This document shows positions 41,822 to 51,498 of a stretch of 64,000 nucleotides of DNA, in pieces; the stretch's first letter is position 1, and every line of letters starts with the position of its first letter. The DNA is taken from positions 124,001 to 188,000 of the forward strand of contig NZ_JBGCCU010000020.1 of the NCBI RefSeq assembly GCF_041261445.1, written 5' to 3'. Source of the DNA: Catenulispora sp. EB89. GTDB lineage: Bacteria; Actinomycetota; Actinomycetes; Streptomycetales; Catenulisporaceae. A program made the translations under genes and the position numbers. The notes under the pieces are model-generated. The model saw only the letters and a list, made by a program, of their open reading frames with translations. It was not told the origin of the DNA and ran no database searches.

Positions 41822-41992
41822 GTGCACTGCCTTTTGGATGACCACCTGCGGCCCAACCGCAAAGCGGTGCGACGACGGCTCGAGGGGGCGACCATGCTGA
41901 CCAGAGAAGACCTCAACCCGGACACCACGCGGGATGCCGGCCCTGGCGGCTCGAACGACAGGTTCGCACAAGGCGAAAGGCCAGGTCGATGA
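41822..41992 (+). CDS. Candidate leaderless upstream ORF (56 codons) coupled to the PAC2 gene
   Basis: GTG 41822 follows TAGGCT by 6 nt and the frame runs without a stop to TGA 41990-41992, which overlaps the PAC2 ATG (ATGA). The peptide starts VHCLLDDHLRPNRKAVRRRL, is basic in the first half and polar in the second; no family known. Codon use is poorer than in neighbouring genes (AGA, AGG, CTT, CAA), which argues for a regulatory leader or a non-conserved 5' region rather than an enzyme. Either way the mRNA must begin near 41822. Confidence 0.45.
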   Translation: MHCLLDDHLRPNRKAVRRRLEGATMLTREDLNPDTTRDAGPGGSNDRFAQGERPGR

Positions 41993-42897
41993 TCGAATTC
42001 AGTGGCGATGTGCCCGGCCTGGTGGATCCGGTGGCGATCTGCGCGTTCGAGGGGTGGAACGACGCCGGGGAGGCGGCTTCCAACGCGGTGAAGCACCTGG
42101 CCGAGGCCTATGCCGGGGGCGGGCGGGTGTTCGCGGCGTTGGACGGGGAGGACTACTACGACTACCAGGTGCATCGGCCGATAGTGGCTTCGGTGGAGGA
42201 TCGGCGGCAGGTGGTCTGGCCGACGACGCGGTTCTCCGTCGTGCGGGCGCCGGCGCGGCTGCTGCCCGGGGACGCTCATGAGGAGCCGCGGGATCTGGTG
42301 CTGGTGCACGGTGTGGAGCCGAACATGCGCTGGCGGTCGTTCTGCGAGGAGATCCTGGGGCTGGCGCGGGATCTGGGGGTGGGGCAGGTCATCACGCTGG
42401 GCGCGTACCTGGCCGACGTGCCGCACACCCGGGCCACGCCGGTGACCGGGACCAGCTCGGACGAGGCGTACCAGGCGTTGTTCGACGTGGAGCCGCCGAC
42501 GTACGAGGGCCCGGTGGGGATCACCGGGGTGTTCCAGGAGGCGTGCCACTTCGCGGGCATCCCGCTGATGTCGTTCTGGGCCGCGGTGCCGCACTACGTG
42601 GCGCATCCGCCGGTGCCGAAGGCGACGTTGGCGCTGCTGCGGCGGCTGGAAGACGTGCTCGACCTGTCGGTGCCGACCAAGCGGCTGGCCGAGGAGGCGC
42701 AGTCATGGGAGGCCGGCGTGGACGAGCTGGCGGAGAACGACGCCGAGGTCGGGGAGTACGTGCGGACGTTGGAGGAGCAGCGGGACAACGAGGACGCCGC
42801 CGATCTGCCGGAAGCCAGCGGCGAGGCGATCGCGCGGGAGTTCGAGCGGTATCTGCGACGGCAGGAGCGGCGGCGGGGGTCGTCGGAGGAGGGGTAG
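41989..42897 (+). CDS. PAC2-family protein
   Basis: 302 aa. PAC2 (proteasome assembly chaperone-like) core about 10-215: VAICAFEGWNDAGEAASNAV, LVLVHGVEPNMRWRSFCEEI, ITLGAYLADVPHTRATPVTG and GITGVFQEACHFAGIPLMSFW. C-terminal helical region is acidic (VGEYVRTLEEQRDNED). ATG overlaps the stop of the short upstream ORF. Close relatives are widespread in actinobacteria near mshC, as here; one Streptomyces relative (ParJ) has, to my knowledge, been tied to ParA, but no role is assigned here. Confidence 0.85.
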   Translation: MIEFSGDVPGLVDPVAICAFEGWNDAGEAASNAVKHLAEAYAGGGRVFAALDGEDYYDYQVHRPIVASVEDRRQVVWPTTRFSVVRAPARLLPGDAHEEPRDLVLVHGVEPNMRWRSFCEEILGLARDLGVGQVITLGAYLADVPHTRATPVTGTSSDEAYQALFDVEPPTYEGPVGITGVFQEACHFAGIPLMSFWAAVPHYVAHPPVPKATLALLRRLEDVLDLSVPTKRLAEEAQSWEAGVDELAENDAEVGEYVRTLEEQRDNEDAADLPEASGEAIAREFERYLRRQERRRGSSEEG

Positions 42898-43098: not shown

Positions 43099-43971
43099 TC
43101 AGAATCCTGCGATGAGGCGCAGCGCCTCGTCGACGGAGGCCGCCGGGTCCGGGACGGGGTAAAGCGTGCCGCGGATGGTGCGCGACGCGTCGACGATGAG
43201 CGTCGCGCGCTTGAGGCGGTCGGCGCCGGCGGCCCGGAACGTGGGCAGGCGGAGGGCGGCGGCGAGATCGAGCGCCTGGTCGGACAGCAGCGGGAACGGC
43301 AGGTTCTCCGCTTCGGCGAACCGGGCCAGTTGCTCGGGACGCTGCGTGCAGACCCCGATGACGGCGGCGTCGGCCGCGACGAAGTCCGGCAGGCGGTCGC
43401 GGAAGGTGCGGGCTTCGAGCGTGCAGCCGGGGCCGCCGGGGACGTCGGACCAGCCGGGAGCCAGGCCGGGCTCGACGGACGGCGAGCCGGGGAAGGTGTA
43501 CAGGACCGTCCACTTGGCGCCGGCGGACACCGGATCGGTCGGCGTGCCGTCGCCGGCCGGGAGTGTCAGCGCCGGAATACCGGCGCCGACCAGCGCCCGG
43601 ACCCGGCGCGCCTCGGCGGAGGCGGGTTCGGAGGTGCCGGTGAGTGTCCCGTCGCCCATCACGTGTTGCGCACCCCAGTTCTGCAGCGCGATCAGCACCG
43701 GGAGCAGCCCGCGCCCGGCGTCGGTGAGGTGGTACTCGAAGCGCGGCGGGCGATCAGAGTACTGACGCCGCTCCAGGACGCCGCGCTCGACGAGCATCGC
43801 CAGCCGCTCGGTGAGCACCTTGCGGCTGACGCCGAGCTCGTCGGCGAGGTCGGAGAAGCGGGTGACGCCGCCGGCGACATCGCGCACGACGAGGAGCGTC
43901 CACCAGTCGCCGACGACGTCGAGCGCCTGCGCGATGGAGCAGTCGGTGTCCGCGATGCGGGTGTACTTCAC
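43099..43971 (-). CDS. HxlR regulator fused to a 1-Cys peroxiredoxin-like domain
   Basis: 290 aa. Residues about 10-105 are a HxlR/MarR-like winged helix with the conserved Cys (DTDCSIAQALDVVGDWWTLL). Residues about 130-290 are an AhpC/TSA-PrxQ-like thioredoxin fold: WTVLYTFPG, the peroxidatic-type Cys in GGPGCTLEARTF, AAVIGVCTQRPEQL, LPFPLLSDQ and a Prx-like tail. The resolving Cys position of PrxQ is Arg here. A redox-responsive regulator is the natural reading. GTG 43971 is leaderless: TATACT (43978-43983, minus strand) ends 6 nt upstream. Divergent from an MFS exporter. Confidence 0.88.
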   Translation of the reverse strand: MKYTRIADTDCSIAQALDVVGDWWTLLVVRDVAGGVTRFSDLADELGVSRKVLTERLAMLVERGVLERRQYSDRPPRFEYHLTDAGRGLLPVLIALQNWGAQHVMGDGTLTGTSEPASAEARRVRALVGAGIPALTLPAGDGTPTDPVSAGAKWTVLYTFPGSPSVEPGLAPGWSDVPGGPGCTLEARTFRDRLPDFVAADAAVIGVCTQRPEQLARFAEAENLPFPLLSDQALDLAAALRLPTFRAAGADRLKRATLIVDASRTIRGTLYPVPDPAASVDEALRLIAGF

Positions 43972-43977
43972 GGGGCC

Positions 43978-44024
43978 AGTATAGTCGATTCACAATGGGA
44001 ACTCAGTCAGTTCACAATGGGAAC
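43978..44024. promoter_or_regulatory. Overlapping divergent -10 boxes and duplicated HxlR operator
   Basis: TATACT on the minus strand (43983-43978, for hxlR) and TATAGT on the plus strand (43980-43985, for the MFS gene) overlap by 4 bp. Two copies of TTCACAATGGGAAC (43989-44002 and 44011-44024) follow at 22-bp spacing, about two helical turns; the second copy is the dyad GTTC-N7-GAAC. They cover the MFS transcription start and the hxlR -35 region. Confidence 0.75.
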
Positions 44025-44045
44025 CAACTCTGGGGAGGGGCACAC

Positions 44046-45572
44046 GTGAGCGCCGACGCGCAGACGGACAGCGAGAACAGCACACGGTCTGCCATCACAC
44101 AGCCGGCCAGCGCACAGCCAGATGGCACGGCCCCGCCGCCGGACAGGGCACACGCAGGCGACACGGCCGCAGCACCGCAGGCCAGCGCGCCACCGGATCA
44201 CGCGAGCGCCGCACCGCAGGCCAACACCCCACCGGATCGCGCAAGCGCCGCACCGCCGCGCAGCACCCCACCGGATCACGCGAGCGCCGCACCGCAGGTC
44301 AGCGCCCCACCGGATCACGCGAGCGCCGCACCGCCGCCCAGCGCGCCACCGGACGCCACCCGCTCCTGGTTCTGGCGCTACTTCGCGGGCTCGACGGTCA
44401 GCCGCGTCGGCACCGCCGTGACCACCGTCGCGCTGCCGCTGACGGCGTTGGCGGCGGCGCACGCGACCAGCTTCGAGGTCGGCGCCGTCGCCGCGGCGGG
44501 ATACGCGGCGTGGGCTGTCGTGGGGTTGCCTGCGGGGGTGCTCGTCGGGCGGCTGCCGTTGCGGGGGACGCAGGTGGCGATGGATCTGGTGCGGGCGCTC
44601 GCTTTGGCTTCGGTGCCGTTGGCGTGGTGGTTCGGTTCGGTGACGGTGACGCAGTTGGTGGTGGTCGCGCTGGTCGTGGGGGTGGCGTCGGTGATCTTCG
44701 ACGTCGGGAACGCCACGATGCTGCCGTTCCTCGTGGACAAGGAGGAGCTCACTGCGCGCAACAGCCTCACCTCGGGGGCCGAGGCGGTGACGACGCTCGC
44801 CGGGCCGTCGTTGGGCGGGGCTTTGGTGCAGGCGGTCGGGGCGGCGGTCGCCATCGTCGTGGACGTCGTCAGTTACCTGATATCAGCGCTCTTGCTGTGG
44901 AACGTGCCGCGGCCGCCGAAGGTCGTCGCCGATCCGGGTGCGGTCCGGGTGACTGTGCGCGCCTCGATTCGGGAGGGTTGGCACTTCCTCATCCGCGAGC
45001 CCGTTCAGCGGGCGAATCTGTGGATCGCGACGTCCATGAACTTCATCTGCGGCGCGTTGATGGCGCTCACGCCGCTGTTCCTGGTGCGCACGCTCGGGTT
45101 GGGTGCCGCGTGGGTCGGGGCGATGATGGCGGCGGAGGGGTTGGGGAGTCTGCTCGGGGCCTCGCTGACGCCGCGGCTGACGCGGCGGATCGGGACCGGG
45201 CGGGCGCTGCTCCTCGCGTCATTGGCGCTGCCGTTCGGCTACGCGTTGATGCCGTTGGCCGGACACGGCTGGGCCGCGGGGGTGTTCGCGCTCGGGAACG
45301 CCGCGTTCGCCGGGACGGTCGTCGTGGCCAGCATCGTCACGCGCACCTACCGGCAGATCGCGACGCCGACCGCGTTGCTGCCGCGGGTGATGGCGACGGT
45401 GCGCTTCGTCTCCTGGGGCGTGATCCCGGTCGGCGCGCTGGCCGCCGGGACCGTCGCGTCCTGGTACGGGCCGCGCGCGGCGTTGTGGTGGACCGCCGCC
45501 GCGACTCTCGCCGTGCCGGCGGTGGTGCTGACCAGTCCGATCCGCGCGCGGCGAGACATCGCTGAGGGGTGA
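44046..45572 (+). CDS. MFS exporter with a repetitive proline-rich N-terminal tail
   Basis: 508 aa from GTG 44046 (GGGGAGGGG upstream). The first 105 residues are a cytoplasmic, disordered Pro/Ala tail with four 13-residue repeats of the SAPPDHASAAPQ type. Twelve helices follow (MFS_3 class): WFWRYFAGSTVSRVGTAVTT, FDVGNATMLPFLV, AGPSLGGALVQAVGAAVAI. It is divergent from the HxlR-peroxiredoxin gene and presumably its target. Substrate unknown; export of a redox-active or electrophilic compound is inferred. Confidence 0.85.
   Translation: MSADAQTDSENSTRSAITQPASAQPDGTAPPPDRAHAGDTAAAPQASAPPDHASAAPQANTPPDRASAAPPRSTPPDHASAAPQVSAPPDHASAAPPPSAPPDATRSWFWRYFAGSTVSRVGTAVTTVALPLTALAAAHATSFEVGAVAAAGYAAWAVVGLPAGVLVGRLPLRGTQVAMDLVRALALASVPLAWWFGSVTVTQLVVVALVVGVASVIFDVGNATMLPFLVDKEELTARNSLTSGAEAVTTLAGPSLGGALVQAVGAAVAIVVDVVSYLISALLLWNVPRPPKVVADPGAVRVTVRASIREGWHFLIREPVQRANLWIATSMNFICGALMALTPLFLVRTLGLGAAWVGAMMAAEGLGSLLGASLTPRLTRRIGTGRALLLASLALPFGYALMPLAGHGWAAGVFALGNAAFAGTVVVASIVTRTYRQIATPTALLPRVMATVRFVSWGVIPVGALAAGTVASWYGPRAALWWTAAATLAVPAVVLTSPIRARRDIAEG
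44181..44336 (+). repeat. Four 39-bp tandem repeats inside the MFS gene
   Basis: Units start at 44181, 44220, 44259 and 44298 and each encodes 13 residues (A/V/R-S/N-A/T-PPD-H/R-ASAAP-Q/P); a partial fifth follows. Copy number is likely to vary between strains. Confidence 0.8.
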
Positions 45573-45594: not shown

Positions 45595-46908
45595 TTAGAG
45601 CGCTACGCCGAGCAGCGCGTCGGTGATCCGGCTGATCTGGCCCGGCGCTGCCATGTTCCGCTCGGCCGAAGCCGAAGCGGAAGCCGACGTGGAAGCCGAA
45701 GCCGACGTGGAATCCGCAGCGTCCGCGGCCTCCTGCCGGGCCACCCACCCGTCGATCACCGCCAGCACCCCCGGCGTGTCGAGGTCGTCGGCGATCCGCT
45801 CGCGCACCGCGGCGAGCACGTCGTCGGCCGGCACGCCGTCCGGCCGCGACACCGCCGCGCGCCAGCGCGCCAGGCGCACCTCGGCGGCGGCCAGGTCGGC
45901 GTCGGTCCACTCCCAGTCGGTGCGGTAGTGGTGCGCCAGCAGTGCCAGGCGGATCGCCATCGGGTCGACGCCGGCGTGCCGGAGCTTGGAGACCAGGACC
46001 AGGTTGCCCTTGGACTTCGACATCTTCTCGCCGTCCAGGCCGACCATGCCGGAATGCACGTAGGTGTGCGCGTAGGGCCGCTCGCCGGTGACCACCTGCG
46101 CCTCCGAGGCGCCCATCTCGTGGTGCGGGAAGGCCAGGTCGCTGCCGCCGCCCTGCAGGTCGATGCCCATGCCCAGGTGCTCCAGGGCGATCGCGGCGCA
46201 CTCGATGTGCCAGCCGGGGCGGCCCGGCTTCAGGCCGGCGGCGCGCGCCGCCTCGCCGGGCTCCCAGGACGGCTCGCCCTCGCGTTCGGCCTGCCAGAGC
46301 AGACAGTCCAGGGCGTTCTTCTTGCCGGGACGGCCCGGGTCGCCGCCGCGCTCGCCGAAGGTGGTGAGCATCTCGGGGGTGTCCAGGTGGGCCACGGAAC
46401 CGAAGGCGGGGTCGGCGTGGACCGAGAAGTAGATGTCGCCGTCGACGTCGTAGGCGGCGCCGCGCTCCAGCAGCTTCACGACCAGGTCCACGACCAGCGG
46501 GATGGACTCCACCGCGCCGACGTAGTGCTGCGGCGGCAGGATGCGCAGCGCGGTCATGTCCTCGCGGAACAGGGCGGTCTCGGACTCGGCCAGGCGGACC
46601 CAGTCCTGGCCGGTGGCCAGGGCGCGCTCCAGCAGCGGGTCGTCGACGTCGGTGACGTTCTGCACGTAGGACACCGGGTGCCCGGCGTCCAGCCACGCCC
46701 GCTGGATCAGGTCGAAGGCCAGGTAGGTGTTGGCGTGTCCCATGTGGGTCGCGTCATAGGGCGTGATGCCGCACACGTAGATGCGGGCCGCCTCGCCGGG
46801 GGCCGCCGCCGGCGTGGGCACCAGGCCCTGCGCGGCGGTGTCGTGGAGCCGGACGGCAGAGCCGTGACCGGGCAGGTCAGGAACCTCGGGGGCGGGCCAT
46901 GCGTGCAT
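45595..46908 (-). CDS. mshC: L-cysteine:1D-myo-inositol 2-amino-2-deoxy-alpha-D-glucopyranoside ligase
   Basis: Mycothiol biosynthesis: ATP-dependent joining of cysteine to GlcN-Ins. 437 aa, somewhat longer than the usual 410-415. Class I synthetase-like core with [20 protein letters not shown] (HIGH motif and zinc Cys), [32 protein letters not shown] (zinc site), [15 protein letters not shown] and [12 protein letters not shown] (KMSKS). [12 protein letters not shown] distinguishes MshC from CysS. The extra length is a Ser/Ala repeat tract ([14 protein letters not shown]) near the C-terminus. ATG 46908 is leaderless: TAGGAT ends 7 nt upstream. Confidence 0.96.
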
Positions 46909-47087: not shown

Positions 47088-48044
47088 TCAGCCAACGGTC
47101 TCGCCGGTCTCGCCGGCTCCGCCGGGTCCGACCGTCCCCCGGGTCCAGGCGGTCAGCAGCGGCCGGTATCCGCACCGGCTCCAGAACGGCACGGACAGCG
47201 GATTCGTGGCCGTGTAGTGCAGCAGGACCGCGCCGATGCCCTCGGCGTCGAGCTCGGCGTGGACGTGGCGGACCAGCGCGCTCCCGACGCCGCCGCCCCG
47301 CTCCCCCGCCGTGACGGCTCCGCAGTTCAGGTATGCGGCCGGAGCGACGCGGATCAGGTGCGCGGCCCAGCTGGCGTTCTCCGGCGGCTGGACCACGATC
47401 AGCCCGACCGCCGCCCCGTCCCGCTCGGCGATCCAGGCCCGCTTCTCCTCGCCGCCGACGGCCTGCGCGACCTGCTCGGCCAGGCCGGACGGGGTGGAGG
47501 GCCGGATCGCGACGTAACCGAACTGCGCGTCCCAGCGCAGTTGCTCGAGCCACAGCCGGGTCACGGCTTCAGTGTCCCGGGGCTTGGCGCGCCGGACCAC
47601 GACGCCGGAGCCGGTGTTCCCGGGGAACGACGGCCCGGGTATCGGCTGCCCGGCGAGCCGCACCGCGAGGATCGCCTGCGGCGTGAATCCACGCTCGACC
47701 AAGGCCCGCGACATCTCAGTGTCGCGCGAGGGCCAGGTGATGGTGGCGATGCTGTCCGGGCCCGGCCGGAACTCGTCCTGCTCGGCCCACAGATCCAACA
47801 GCTCGGCGAACGCGCCGGGTCCGTCGACCTTCGGCACCAGCTTGCTCTCGTGGGCCGCGAAGAAGGTGTAGCCCCAGGTGTCCGGATCGCTGTCCACGTT
47901 CCGCACCAGCGCCACGCCGCCGGGGCAGCTCAGTGCCGTATCCCGTTTCCCGGGCGGGGGAAGCGGTTCCGACCGCGCCAACAACGGATCGAATGCCGCA
48001 CGCCGCGCCTGATGTGCCGCGAGCAATTCCGGAGTCTGCTCCAC
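47088..48044 (-). CDS. GNAT-family N-acetyltransferase (two GNAT-like halves)
   Basis: 318 aa from GTG 48044, preceded by GGGAGGGAGGAG. The C-terminal half (about 165-310) is a standard GNAT fold with acetyl-CoA loop [15 protein letters not shown]; the N-terminal half looks like a degenerate second GNAT. MshD, the last mycothiol enzyme, is also a double GNAT, and mshC lies next door, but the sequence does not show clear MshD features, so no specific substrate is assigned. The open frame continues upstream to 48800 only as an antisense shadow of the next gene. Confidence 0.82.
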
Positions 48045-48133
48045 CAAACTCCTCCCTCCCAAGCCGCCAGACACACTAGCGGCCCGCTCGGTTCGGAAGC
48101 AGCGATTCGGAAGCAGCGGCACAGAAGCAGCGG

Positions 48134-48997
48134 TCAGAAAGGCGGCCAGGGCACCGGGCGCCGACGCCCCTCGGGCCCCGGTATCCGGTCGGTCTCCAGC
48201 AGTTCCCTGATGCGCCCCCGGGTCGCGGCGACCTCCTCGGCGTCCAGCAGCCCGGCCAGCCGGCCGCCGAGGCCGCCGGACTCGACGTCCCGGTCCAGCT
48301 TCACCAGCACCTCGCGGACCTCCTCGCCCAGCGGCTCGCTGCTGAAGCCCCACAGCAGGGTGCGCAGTTTGTCGTCGACGTTGAAGGTCAGCCCGTGGTC
48401 GATGCCGTACACGTGCTCCGGCTCGGCGATCCCGACCAGCAGGTGCCCGCCCTTGCGGTCGGCGTTGTTCACCACCGCGTCGAAGGCCGCGATGCGGCGC
48501 AGGCGCTCGTCGGCCTTGTGCGCCAGCACCGCCGGGCGGCCGTCGCCGAGCTCCACCGACAACACCGGGCGCCACTGGGCCGCGGCCTCGTCGGCCGGGT
48601 CGACGTCGAAGTCCTCCGGCAGCAGCGCGAGCAGGTCGTGCTCGTCCTCGTCCGGGGTGTCGATCCACAGCTGGCACATGCCCGGGCCCCAGGGGCCCTC
48701 GCGCATCACCGTCGGCGGCACGATGCGCCAGCCCGTGGCCTGCGACAGCTCGTAGGCGGCGACCTCGCGGGCGGCCAGCGTGCCGTTGGGGAAGTCCCAC
48801 AGCGGGCGCTCGCCGGCCACCGGCTTGTGCACGCAGGTCAGGCTGACGCCGTCCAGGGCCACCGTGCCGTAGAGCGTGGCGTTGGAGGCGTTGGTGAGCC
48901 GGCCGGTGATGGCCAGCTCGCCGCTCGTCAGGACCTGCCGCACCCCGGCCGGATCCAGGTCCTGCTCGGCCGCGGCGTCCGCTCCGGGGGTGCTCAA
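48134..48997 (-). CDS. SCO1664-family protein (PI3/4-kinase-like fold)
   Basis: 287 aa, actinobacterial conserved family of unknown function. The core looks like a PI4K-II/HipA-like kinase: N-terminal NATLYGTVALDG and VHKPVAGERPLWDFP (possible nucleotide Lys), EVAAYELSQATGW, then a catalytic-loop-like FDAVVNNADRKGGHLL and a metal-loop-like YGIDHGLTFN. TTG 48997 overlaps the DUF3090 stop by 4 bp (TTGA), so the genes are coupled. The kinase-like reading is by motif; enzymatic activity is not established to my knowledge. Confidence 0.82.
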   Translation of the reverse strand: MSTPGADAAAEQDLDPAGVRQVLTSGELAITGRLTNASNATLYGTVALDGVSLTCVHKPVAGERPLWDFPNGTLAAREVAAYELSQATGWRIVPPTVMREGPWGPGMCQLWIDTPDEDEHDLLALLPEDFDVDPADEAAAQWRPVLSVELGDGRPAVLAHKADERLRRIAAFDAVVNNADRKGGHLLVGIAEPEHVYGIDHGLTFNVDDKLRTLLWGFSSEPLGEEVREVLVKLDRDVESGGLGGRLAGLLDAEEVAATRGRIRELLETDRIPGPEGRRRPVPWPPF

Positions 48998-49560
48998 GCC
49001 GCGCGCCGCCGGTAGCCGTTGGAGCGCGGACAGACGTGACCCTCGGGGTCCAGCGGCAGCGAGCAGAAGGGGCACGGCGGCCGGCCGGCCGAGACCACGG
49101 CCTTCGCGCGGGAGGTGAACGCCCGCGCCTGCGCGCCGGTGAGCCGGACCACCATGGTCGGCGGGCCGTCGGCCTCCATGTCGCCCAGCGGCGGCTCGCC
49201 CTCGCCCTCCATCGGCGCCATGGCCTCGATCACCACCCGCTGGGTCTCGCCGTCCCAGGCCAGCGCCAGGGCCGCGACCCGGAACTCCTCGAAGACCGGC
49301 TGTTCCAGGGGCTTGTCGTCGGCCAGCTCCAACGGCGCGATCGCCGGGACCGGGGCGGCCCCGCCGGAGCGGCGCACGACCTCGTCCAGCAGGTCGTCCA
49401 GCCGCTCGGCCAACGCCTCGACCTGCTCCTTCTCCAGCGCCACGGAGGTGATCCGGCCGCCGGAGGCCGCCTGCAGGTAGAAGGTGCGGTGCCCGGGGAG
49501 TCCGACGGTGCCGGCGACGAACCGTTCCGGGGGGTCGTAGACGAAGAGTTCCCGTGACAC
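48994..49560 (-). CDS. DUF3090-family protein with C-terminal zinc-ribbon-like motif
   Basis: 188 aa. Starts VSRELFVYDPPERFVAGTVG, includes TFYLQAASGGRITSVALEKEQ and MVVRLTGAQARAFTSRA, and ends with the Cys cluster PPCPFCSLPLDPEGHVCPRS, likely a zinc site. GTG 49560 is preceded by GGAGG, with TAGGCT (49615-49620, minus strand) as -10 of the trio promoter. Family function unknown; it always seems to travel with the SCO1664-like and histidine-phosphatase genes. Confidence 0.9.
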   Translation of the reverse strand: MSRELFVYDPPERFVAGTVGLPGHRTFYLQAASGGRITSVALEKEQVEALAERLDDLLDEVVRRSGGAAPVPAIAPLELADDKPLEQPVFEEFRVAALALAWDGETQRVVIEAMAPMEGEGEPPLGDMEADGPPTMVVRLTGAQARAFTSRAKAVVSAGRPPCPFCSLPLDPEGHVCPRSNGYRRRAA

Positions 49561-49614
49561 CGTGTTTCCTCCTACAAGCTTCGCGCTCAGGCCCTCTCGT
49601 GGGCCCCGCAATCA

Positions 49615-49620
49615 AGCCTA
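49615..49620 (-). promoter_or_regulatory. -10 box TAGGCT upstream of the DUF3090 operon
   Basis: TAGGCTTGA on the minus strand, overlapping the end of the phosphatase gene region; predicts a leader of about 50 nt before GTG 49560. Confidence 0.5.
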
Positions 49621-49625
49621 TGCGT

Positions 49626-50336
49626 TCATGCGTTGTCGGCGCCCGCGCCGCCCCCCACTGCGGCGTCCGCGTCCGCTGTAGGCGAACGCTCGGGGGCCGG
49701 CTTGTAGGGCGCCGGGTCGCCGCCGACGTCGTTCAGGCGCACGACGAACGGCCGCATCTCGGTGTAGCGCACGGCGGTGACCGAGCACGGATCGCAGGTG
49801 ATGCGCTGGAACTGGTCCAGGTGCAGGCCCAGGGCGTCGGCGGCCAAGGCCTTGATGACGTCGCCGTGCGAGAACACCGCCCACACCGCCTCCGGTCCGT
49901 GTTCGGCCGCTATCAGGGTGTTCCATTCCCGCACCGCGGCCGCCGCACGCGCGGACATGTCGGCCATCGACTCGCCCTCGGGCCCGGGGAAGCGCGCGGC
50001 GGAAGGATGCCCCTGCACGACCTTCCACAGCGGTTCCTTGGCCAACTCGGCCAGCGGCCGGCCGGTCCAGTCGCCGTAGCGGCACTCGCCGATCCGCTCG
50101 TCCAGGTGCACCGGCACGCTCTCGCGGCCGGCCAGCACGATGTCGGAGGTCTGCCGGCAGCGCTCGAGCGGGGAGCTCACCACGGCCGACAGCGGCACCT
50201 CGGCCAGCCGCTTGGCCAGCTCGCCGGCTTGCTGTTCGCCGCGCTCGTCCAGGCGCACACCCTTGGTCCAGCCGGCGAGGACGCCGGAGCTGTTGGCCGT
50301 GGTGCGGCCGTGGCGGATCAGGAGTACCAGGGTCAC
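49626..50336 (-). CDS. MSMEG_4193-family histidine phosphatase (phosphoglycerate-mutase-like)
   Basis: 236 aa from GTG 50336, fixed by a leaderless -10 box (TAGGGT, 50344-50349). RHG motif LLIRHGRTTANSSGVLAGWT near the N-terminus, SSPLERCRQTSDI, IGECRYGDWTG and the second His in AVFSHGDVIKALAAD. Ends with a poorly conserved Pro/Ala tail. Most such proteins are phosphatases, not mutases. Together with the kinase-like SCO1664 protein it suggests a phosphorylation/dephosphorylation pair acting on an unknown substrate. Confidence 0.9.
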   Translation of the reverse strand: MTLVLLIRHGRTTANSSGVLAGWTKGVRLDERGEQQAGELAKRLAEVPLSAVVSSPLERCRQTSDIVLAGRESVPVHLDERIGECRYGDWTGRPLAELAKEPLWKVVQGHPSAARFPGPEGESMADMSARAAAAVREWNTLIAAEHGPEAVWAVFSHGDVIKALAADALGLHLDQFQRITCDPCSVTAVRYTEMRPFVVRLNDVGGDPAPYKPAPERSPTADADAAVGGGAGADNA

Positions 50337-50517: not shown

Positions 50518-51498
50518 ATGATCGTCGACTGTGCCACCTACCAGAACGGCCGCCGCGTGGCCGCGCCCGAGGACCTCTCGGACGCGCTGGAACAGGCCAG
50601 GAGCTGCGGGGATCCCGGGGCGTTCCTGTGGCTGGGGCTGTTCGAGCCGGAGCCGGACGAGTTCGACCTGGTGGCGCGCGAGTTCGGACTGCATCCGCTG
50701 GCCGTGGAGGACGCGGTCAGCGCGCACCAGCGGCCCAAGCTGGAGCACTACAAGGGCTCGACGTTCCTGGTGTTCAAGACGCTGCTGGAGTCCGATCCGC
50801 ACCATCCGCTGCAGCTCGGCGAGATCTCGGTGTTCCTCGGCGAGAACTTCATCGTCACCGTCCGGCACGGCGCGGCCAACCCGCTGTCGGGGGTGCGGCA
50901 CCGGGTCGAGGCCGAGCCGGAGCTGCTGCAGCTCGGGCCCAGCGCGGTGCTGTACGCGGTCGCGGACCTGATCGTCGACTCCTACAGCGGCTACGCGCAG
51001 CTGATGCAGGACTCGATCGACGAGCTGGAGACCGAGGTCTTCTCCCCCGTCCGCGGCGACTACGGCGGCCCGATCTACGCGCTCAAGCGCAACGCGATCG
51101 TGTTCGCGCGCGCCGTGCTGCCGCTGGTGATGCCGACGAAGGCGCTGGTCGCCGGGGAGGAGGACTGGATCGCGAAGGAGACCCAGCCGTACTTCCGGGA
51201 CGTCGCCGACCACGTGCTGCGCGCCACGGACGGCGCGCGGGAGTGGAACGAGCTGCTGGACCACATGCTGGAGGCGGACCGGTCGCGGGTGTCGGTGCAG
51301 CAGAACGACGACATGCGGCGGATCTCCGCGTGGGCGGCGATTCTGGCGGTGCCGACGGCGATCGCCGGGATCTACGGGATGAACTTCGACGACATGCCGG
51401 AGCTGCACTACCACTACTCGTACTACGTGGTGCTGGGGATCATGGCCACGGCGTGCGTGGTGCTGTACGTGCTGTTGAAGCGGGCGAAGTGGCTGTGA
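50518..51498 (+). CDS. corA: CorA-family Mg2+/Co2+ channel
   Basis: Pentameric divalent-cation channel, 326 aa. Cytoplasmic funnel domain (about 1-265; FGLHPLAVEDAVSAHQRPKL, VFLGENFIVTVRHG) and two C-terminal helices with the selectivity motif YGMNFDDMPEL after the first. Ends in the basic LLKRAKWL. ATG 50518 is leaderless. Its TGA overlaps the next gene's GTG by 3 bp, giving a two-gene operon with the methyltransferase. The DMPEL loop rather than MPEL-preceded variants is usual for the family. Confidence 0.95.
   Translation: MIVDCATYQNGRRVAAPEDLSDALEQARSCGDPGAFLWLGLFEPEPDEFDLVAREFGLHPLAVEDAVSAHQRPKLEHYKGSTFLVFKTLLESDPHHPLQLGEISVFLGENFIVTVRHGAANPLSGVRHRVEAEPELLQLGPSAVLYAVADLIVDSYSGYAQLMQDSIDELETEVFSPVRGDYGGPIYALKRNAIVFARAVLPLVMPTKALVAGEEDWIAKETQPYFRDVADHVLRATDGAREWNELLDHMLEADRSRVSVQQNDDMRRISAWAAILAVPTAIAGIYGMNFDDMPELHYHYSYYVVLGIMATACVVLYVLLKRAKWL

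Follow-up and report, generated by a model that had tools for sequence, protein, structure and literature searches.

A conserved gene trio of Catenulispora sp. EB89 encoding a kinase-like protein, a DUF3090 protein and a histidine phosphatase, and its possible role in reversible phosphorylation

We analysed a stretch of 64,000 nucleotides from Catenulispora sp. EB89 (contig NZ_JBGCCU010000020.1, positions 124,001 to 188,000 of the forward strand; here called the window), in which three adjacent genes encode a histidine phosphatase (H), a DUF3090 protein (D) and a kinase-like protein of the SCO1664 family (K). All three are read from the minus strand, H first, then D and K (Table 1), where an earlier note made from the sequence alone had placed them. 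They are as closely spaced as that note had described: H starts with GTG and lies 65 nt upstream of D, D starts with GTG preceded by GGAGG, and the TTG start of K is part of a TTGA that shares 4 nt with the stop of D. The motifs quoted in the note, NNADRKGGHLL and IDHGLTFN in K, the CPFC...HVC cluster in D and RHG in H, were all found. When the proteins were compared with NCBIfam, they were clear members of three families at 1.5-2.1x the curated cut-offs, with no difference that would set them apart: K scored 316.9 bits with TIGR03843 (SCO1664 family, cut-off 172.4), D 240.9 bits with TIGR03847 (DUF3090, cut-off 117.25) and H 310.4 bits with TIGR03848 (MSMEG_4193 family, cut-off 203.85). D also matched the Pfam family DUF3090 (PF11290, 223.9 vs 27) and H matched His_Phos_1 (PF00300). 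The names of the three NCBIfam families carry no tested function ('hypoth_equivalog', 'conserved hypothetical protein' and 'putative phosphomutase'), and the trio of the window is a typical representative of a gene set that is catalogued but functionally unsolved. The note had spoken of an undescribed circuit; the trio is already known at the family level by these models, and a 2013 review had noted the link between SCO1664 and mshC (PMC4255298). In the open-access literature, that is, outside subscription papers, no study of the function of K or D was found among the matches listed; the listing of Rv2134c among BCG mutants that were altered under rifampicin (PMC11329110) was not weighed. We propose that H, D and K would form a self-contained cassette that writes and erases a phosphate group.

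Table 1. The trio and its neighbours, with positions counted in the window.
Feature	Position	Strand	Basis
K, SCO1664-family kinase-like protein, 287 aa	48134-48997	-	TIGR03843, AF2 model, PI4K-II fold; start read from sequence
D, DUF3090 protein, 188 aa, PUR/Whirly-like fold, C-terminal CxxC..HxC	48994-49560	-	TIGR03847, PF11290, AF2 model
H, MSMEG_4193-family branch-1 histidine phosphatase, 236 aa, RHG motif	49626-50336	-	TIGR03848, PF00300, conserved catalytic residues
GNAT acetyltransferase-like open reading frame between K and mshC, outside the trio	47088-48047	-	PF00583 3.1e-9
mshC, mycothiol cysteine ligase, neighbour, start approximate	45595-46890	-	TIGR03447 597.1 bits
CorA-like metal transporter, divergent, 181 nt from H	50518-51498	+	PF01544 6.2e-58; TIGR00383 slightly below cut-off
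PAC2-family protein, neighbour in class Actinomycetes	41989-42897	+	PF09754 2.8e-61

The fold of K was analysed with an AlphaFold2 (AF2) model that reached a pLDDT of 93 and a pTM of 0.91. In the VIA comparison, the nine best rows were all type II phosphatidylinositol 4-kinases (PI4K-II, Z 17.1-18.4), the best being 8a5x with a Z of 18.4, a root mean square deviation (rmsd) of 4.2 and 233 aligned residues. The likeness to PI4K2A and PI4K2B extended over residues 14-277 of K and included the NxDR catalytic loop and the IDxG metal loop. The Fam20 kinases (Z 15.5), CtkA (13.8) and HipA (11.4) followed as the next relatives, which belong to the same kinase superfamily by fold but match K more weakly than PI4K-II does. 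Foldseek gave PI4KIIalpha (4hnd, E 1.1e-6) as the first match, and then Fam20 and further PI4K-II entries. A profile of the K alignment matched PI4K2B in the PDB (E 2e-4), and PF00454 was seen in 20 of 21 K members at E values up to 1 (best 2.2e-8). The K of the window alone had no Pfam match at E 0.001, and member 1 of the K alignment scored 22.6, below the PF00454 gathering score of 27.1. K shares 18-20% identity with the type II PI4K, and a lipid activity of K is putative.

The catalytic residues were then compared in 123 K rows (120 different; among them is L154, which duplicates the L080 stretch). Numbered on the trimmed window row, K51, E71, D166, N171, D173, R174, K175, H178 and D193 were invariant in 123/123. 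Because of this invariance, K does not look like a decaying pseudokinase, and the description of K as PI4K-like in the earlier note is supported by both the fold and these residues. K also differs from PI4K-II. In all rows, a His occupies the place of the usual metal-binding Asn of the DRxxxN loop, so that a residue expected of a PI4K-II is absent; H178 was aligned by hidden Markov model (HMM) to the last Asn of DRGNDN in PI4K2B. All rows also have a Lys two residues past the catalytic Asp, and K contains two Cys, which do not form a CC pair. From the alignment and the model, we read K as a probably active but distinct kinase family with a PI4K-II-like fold. Nothing in the analysis speaks for AMPylation by K, and no toxin-antitoxin partner gene was seen recurring beside it, which sets it apart from Fam20, CtkA and HipA.

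For D, the AF2 model reached a pLDDT of 90 and a pTM of 0.80. The five best VIA rows were all Pur-alpha (Z 9.2-9.7; best 8cht with a Z of 9.7, 112 aligned residues and an rmsd of 3.2), followed by two uncharacterised proteins (6.8 and 6.4), Whirly (5.8) and MRP (5.6). We regard the match as moderate, since best Z values of 7-8 are common among unmatched models. Foldseek returned nothing at E 0.001 or better, with Pur-alpha first at 3.3e-3, and the sequence search against the PDB gave no significant match (best E 0.23). According to the model, D would have the duplicated beta-sheet plus helix fold of the PUR domain (Pur-alpha, Bpur) and of Whirly proteins, whereas it differs from these in being acidic (median isoelectric point (pI) 4.6), in usually having a C-terminal Cys cluster and in sharing only 10-13% identity. 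The acidic pI argues against a binding of single-stranded nucleic acids, and nucleic-acid binding of D is not assumed. The earlier note had named D a zinc protein. The Cys cluster is present in the window, but the CxxC is wholly absent in 11 of 117 D rows and its spacing is altered in 4 further rows (one more row is a wrong-frame stretch); the cluster is thus not kept across the DUF3090 family. Since these 11 rows are without the cluster, a PUR/Whirly-like adaptor is, on the basis of the model, a better description of D. At L079:8929-9829, two tandem DUF3090-like matches were observed, at least one of them without the Cys cluster. By gene order, MSMEG_4192 is probably D. In M. smegmatis treated with dibucaine, transposon sequencing found MSMEG_4192 mildly over-represented (log2 1.49, p 0.045; PMC10127668), too weakly to be weighed, and the ClpC1 interactome includes it as uncharacterised (PMC10433963). 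A 2022 survey put DUF3090 down as a putative metal-binding protein (PMC9425974).

The substrate might also be a protein. K would then be a protein kinase of the Fam20/CtkA/HipA kind that phosphorylates one or few proteins, H the cognate phosphatase and D an adaptor presenting the substrate. This agrees with the position of Fam20, CtkA and HipA as next structural relatives of K and with the Lys two residues after the catalytic Asp, which is a protein-kinase trait, and D offers an acidic protein with a fold used for macromolecule binding whose gene overlaps K. However, the match of K to PI4K-II, which covers almost the entire model, is stronger than that to any protein kinase, and the loci scanned showed no target gene that stays constant next to the cassette. 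We consider this arrangement possible but rather doubtful; a protein substrate is almost as likely as an inositol lipid, the substrate class preferred below.

The catalytic residues R8, H9, R59, E84 and H157 of H were each conserved in 103-105 of 106 rows (including five further stretches, L153-L157), as in branch 1 of the histidine phosphatases; the third residue of the motif varied, with RHG in 64 and RHA in 41 rows. Rv2135c is presumably the mycobacterial orthologue of H, by gene order and by matching catalytic positions. In the mycobacterium-like loci L001, L002, L004, L010 and L066, H has RHx at 7-9, Glu82 and His153, matching the published positions of Rv2135c, whereas residue 57 is Leu in these loci and Arg in the published numbering. 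Rv2135c has RHA where the window H has RHG. Rv2135c was described as a tetrameric acid phosphatase that acts on p-nitrophenyl phosphate with a Km of about 10 mM, and it had no mutase activity, whereas the name of the H family suggests a phosphomutase (PMC3866925). Fructose-6-phosphate, phosphoenolpyruvate (PEP) and glycerol-1-phosphate were hydrolysed weakly and ADP, glucose-6-phosphate and 3-phosphoglycerate not at all, and the protein has been reported in membrane fractions (PMC3866925). The histidine phosphatase assignment of the earlier note is supported, and its statement that all three genes are of unknown function is to be qualified for H, whose presumed orthologue has been characterised.

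The weak hydrolysis of fructose-6-phosphate, PEP and glycerol-1-phosphate would also suit a pair of enzymes acting on a small metabolite, with K or H repairing or recycling a sugar phosphate, a polyprenyl phosphate or a cofactor. In several Actinomycetales, the Rv2135c gene adjoins the gene of an undecaprenyl-pyrophosphate phosphatase (PMC3866925), and in 2 of the 55 loci scanned here BacA lies next upstream. UppP-type neighbours were rare in the loci scanned, though, and H matched the model of the alpha-ribazole phosphatase CobC below its cut-off (112.2 vs 162.9), by which an identity of H with CobC was rejected. A metabolite as the substrate appears unlikely to us.

To return to the proposed cassette, its distribution was determined in a sample of 197 genomes of the actinobacterial phylum. 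K was found in 82 genomes (79 over the cut-off), D in 82 (73 over the cut-off) and both in 81, more often together than chance would give. We counted 82 trio genomes, with G163 entered on D alone and G165, which has a marginal K (E 9e-4), entered as trio-less. H was over the strict cut-off in 62/197, counted by presence and not by adjacency to K and D. Among the GTDB species genomes, at least 593 stretches with K relatives were found, and the best 80 of these, from a search begun with a first sequence from outside the Actinomycetes, were taken as loci; 52 were grouped as Chloroflexota. The claim of the earlier note that the genes occur together outside this lineage is borne out by the 81 actinobacterial genomes and by many Chloroflexota. 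Its phrase 'present across a phylum' fits less well: the trio was missing from 115/197 actinobacterial genomes, whereas its reach is wider than one phylum. The K-bearing genomes of Chloroflexota type were 48, namely 46 Chloroflexota (with Aquidulcis as a presumed member), one metagenome-assembled genome (MAG) of Bacillota and one unassigned bacterium. Many of the Chloroflexota genomes are MAGs, and absences from them are therefore soft. In a quick tree of K, the Chloroflexota rows were clustered, with 5 label changes vs a shuffled mean of 39.5, which suggests a mostly vertical descent of K with a few transfers or misplacements.

D was upstream of K in 77/80 loci and H in 60/80. In 41 long loci, H and K were on one strand in 41/41, and so was D in all but L065. 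The same order and strand of H, D and K are found in different lineages, the Chloroflexota included. The neighbours are lineage-specific, with mshC and PAC2 in Actinomycetes and other genes in other groups, in the 41 as in the 80 loci, and no clustered neighbour was shared across the lineages outside this class in the 41 loci. PAC2 recurred in 6/41 loci, the window included, and no neighbour cluster with at least 4 members contained the CorA of the window. When the adjacent open reading frames (ORFs) were scanned with Pfam, no family occurred in more than 4/75 immediately downstream or 3/55 upstream ORFs; L066-L070, Actinomycetes loci in which K is followed by mshC or a CysQ-type gene, were not part of the downstream set. 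In these comparisons of loci, ORFs were called by simple scripts, not a gene finder. In L001, L003, L004 and L066 (L001 and L066 are one genome), K has in its vicinity a same-strand gene of the inositol-monophosphatase (IMPase)/CysQ type, with the motif DPLDGTREF.

Since mshC lies at most 1.7 kb from K in 17/18 sampled genomes of the class Actinomycetes, the cassette might be thought to serve mycothiol synthesis, with H as the phosphatase step MshA2 and K or D as regulators of MshC. The 2013 review called the link of SCO1664 to mshC invariable and suggested a part in the mycothiol network (PMC4255298). MshC was over the cut-off in 18/197 genomes, all of the class Actinomycetes, and 24 more had MshC-like matches of at least 368 bits. 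Neither was found in 42/82 trio genomes of this search, which was run on the actinobacterial genomes and not on the Chloroflexota. By this result, a general role in mycothiol synthesis was rejected; the link is limited to one class, in which the regional gene order is stable, and we hold such a role for very improbable. The statement of the earlier note that the neighbours are as in other actinobacteria is not confirmed: the mshC link is class-limited, a GNAT-like ORF intervenes in the window, and CorA fell outside the larger neighbour clusters.

A membership of the cassette in the Pup-proteasome system was considered in the same way. In the 197 actinobacterial genomes, 80 had both Pup and the trio, 2 the trio only, 5 Pup only and 110 neither (phi 0.93), and pup was 18-35 kb from K in 12/14 Actinomycetes genomes that have both on one contig. 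However, Pup was found in 0/48 of the K-bearing genomes of Chloroflexota type. This rules out a Pup-proteasome role as a general rule, and the near-perfect agreement within the actinobacterial phylum is most simply explained by shared ancestry. We give little credence to this role.

We then analysed the association with inositol lipids. The inositol-1-phosphate synthase Ino1 was searched with PF01658 (found in 137/197), since PF07994 was insensitive to the actinobacterial type (44/197). Ino1 was present in 79/82 trio vs 58/115 trio-less actinobacterial genomes. As a control, Pup matched the trio much more closely than Ino1 did, and for this reason the phyletic fit is unsafe as a proof of function. 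A second marker was a match to phosphatidylinositol-phosphate (PIP) synthase, scored in 80 hand-picked genomes (48 of Chloroflexota type, 19 trio actinobacteria and 13 trio-less genomes enriched for carriers of Ino1 or Pup). A PIP-synthase-like match of at least 95 bits was observed in 62/67 trio genomes, that is, in 43/48 of Chloroflexota type and 19/19 actinobacterial ones. It was also observed in 18/20 trio genomes without a detected Ino1, of which the Chloroflexota-type share was 15/17. The identity of this gene is supported by several Chloroflexota genomes, because there it adjoins Ino1. The link to PIP synthase is suggestive only. Taken together, these comparisons leave an inositol lipid as a candidate, while Pup and mycothiol drop out as general explanations.

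In the mechanism that we propose, K, a member of the PI4K-II/Fam20/HipA superfamily, would be an active kinase that uses ATP to write the phosphate, and H, as a branch-1 histidine phosphatase, would remove it again. D, small and acidic with a predicted PUR fold and translationally coupled to K in the window, might be the partner or regulator of K. The likeliest single class of substrates would be an inositol phospholipid or its headgroup, with K converting phosphatidylinositol (PI) into a PI-phosphate and H reversing this step. The phosphorylation circuit of the earlier note is supported in its two enzymes, the kinase-fold K and the phosphatase H, whereas a common substrate for them is what we infer. 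The families, gene order, distribution, folds and catalytic residues were computed, and the phosphatase activity and membrane presence of the presumed H orthologue are from the literature. We slightly favour the view that K and H oppose each other on some substrate, whichever it is. An inositol lipid as this substrate is possible, though we would not expect it, and the complete proposal of a cassette perhaps acting on inositol lipids is put forward tentatively. A more specific form is unlikely: that K is a vertically kept housekeeping PI kinase, that K and H together switch membrane lipids of Actinobacteria and Chloroflexota between PI and PI-phosphate, and that D regulates this as a PUR-fold protein. 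Mycobacteria make PI via a PI-phosphate, and the dephosphorylating phosphatase was yet unidentified as of 2019 (PMC6506517). Therefore, H could be the PI-phosphate phosphatase in some lineages; it cannot be the universal one, because a PIP-synthase-like gene is also carried by trio-less genomes (9/13).

Several results weigh against this proposal. In K, the Lys after the catalytic Asp is the residue expected of protein kinases. A Cys cluster for palmitoylation is a trait of animal PI4K-II, and with two Cys and no CC pair K lacks it. Ino1 was missing in 17/47 K-bearing Chloroflexota-type genomes (present in 30/47). The PIP-synthase match was over the curated cut-off in 0/80 genomes, the 95-bit line was drawn after the gap in the scores had been seen, and the matches in 9/13 trio-less genomes make the association with the trio weak. 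Among the 75 downstream and 55 upstream ORFs, there was no recurrent lipid gene. Rv2135c was weakly active on 4/7 compounds and inactive on 3/7, with no inositol compound among them (PMC3866925).

The gene set itself is also incomplete in places. H was absent beside K and D in 15/80 loci that have room for it; in 5/80, the contig ends too soon. Orthologues of H were scored with an HMM made from the trio H proteins, in which the trio members scored reached 222-288 bits. In 14 of the 15 H-less genomes (not that of L087), G209, G213, G215 and G239 hold an orthologue-like H elsewhere (204-205 bits in G209 and G213), G214 has a probable H cut by the contig end, and 9 have weaker paralogues or none. 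The control C. glutamicum has K and H over the cut-off and no D. The actinomycete G008 has a second H-K pair (L065:8892-10266), 1 nt apart and without D, which adjoins a luciferase-family gene. As H or D can be missing, only K is constant. No common replacement of H was seen in the H-less loci. Four of them (L109, L112, L121 and L124) share a gene cluster member that is placed just past K and read from the other strand, but they are too few and probably of related lineages; the one at L109:10862-11791 is of the inositol-monophosphatase family (PF00459, 7.1e-47), and its motif is also in L112 and L121.

These gaps would be expected if the three genes were a relic of an old gene order, with K, D and H in unrelated housekeeping jobs. 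The presence of H elsewhere in at least four of the H-less genomes fits this, as does the absence of D. Yet the order survives where the flanking genes have changed, which a neutral conservation of gene order explains poorly, and we find a relic improbable.

For the proposed cassette, the analysis adds that H-D-K stands in the same order in Chloroflexota with no neighbour constant across lineages, that K has an invariant His at the metal site and D, by its model, a PUR/Whirly-like fold, and that the links to Pup and mycothiol fail as general rules. Pup, inositol synthesis and mycothiol all seem linked within one phylum or class, and the links loosen or fail once others are compared. For annotators, an adjacent mshC alone is no reason to assign the cassette to mycothiol. 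With a kinase of the PI4K-II fold kept together with a phosphatase and a partner in two phyla, a regulated bacterial cycle of inositol-lipid phosphorylation becomes a testable question.

Two further genes were observed in the window beyond mshC. The first (43099-43971, minus strand) encodes a fusion of two domains, a DNA-binding one of the HxlR type (PF01638, 4e-23) and a peroxiredoxin one of the AhpC/TSA type (PF00578, 3.2e-17), possibly a regulator with built-in redox sensing. The second (43995-45572, plus strand) encodes an MFS transporter whose membrane domain is preceded by a long N-terminal stretch of Pro/Ala-rich repeats.

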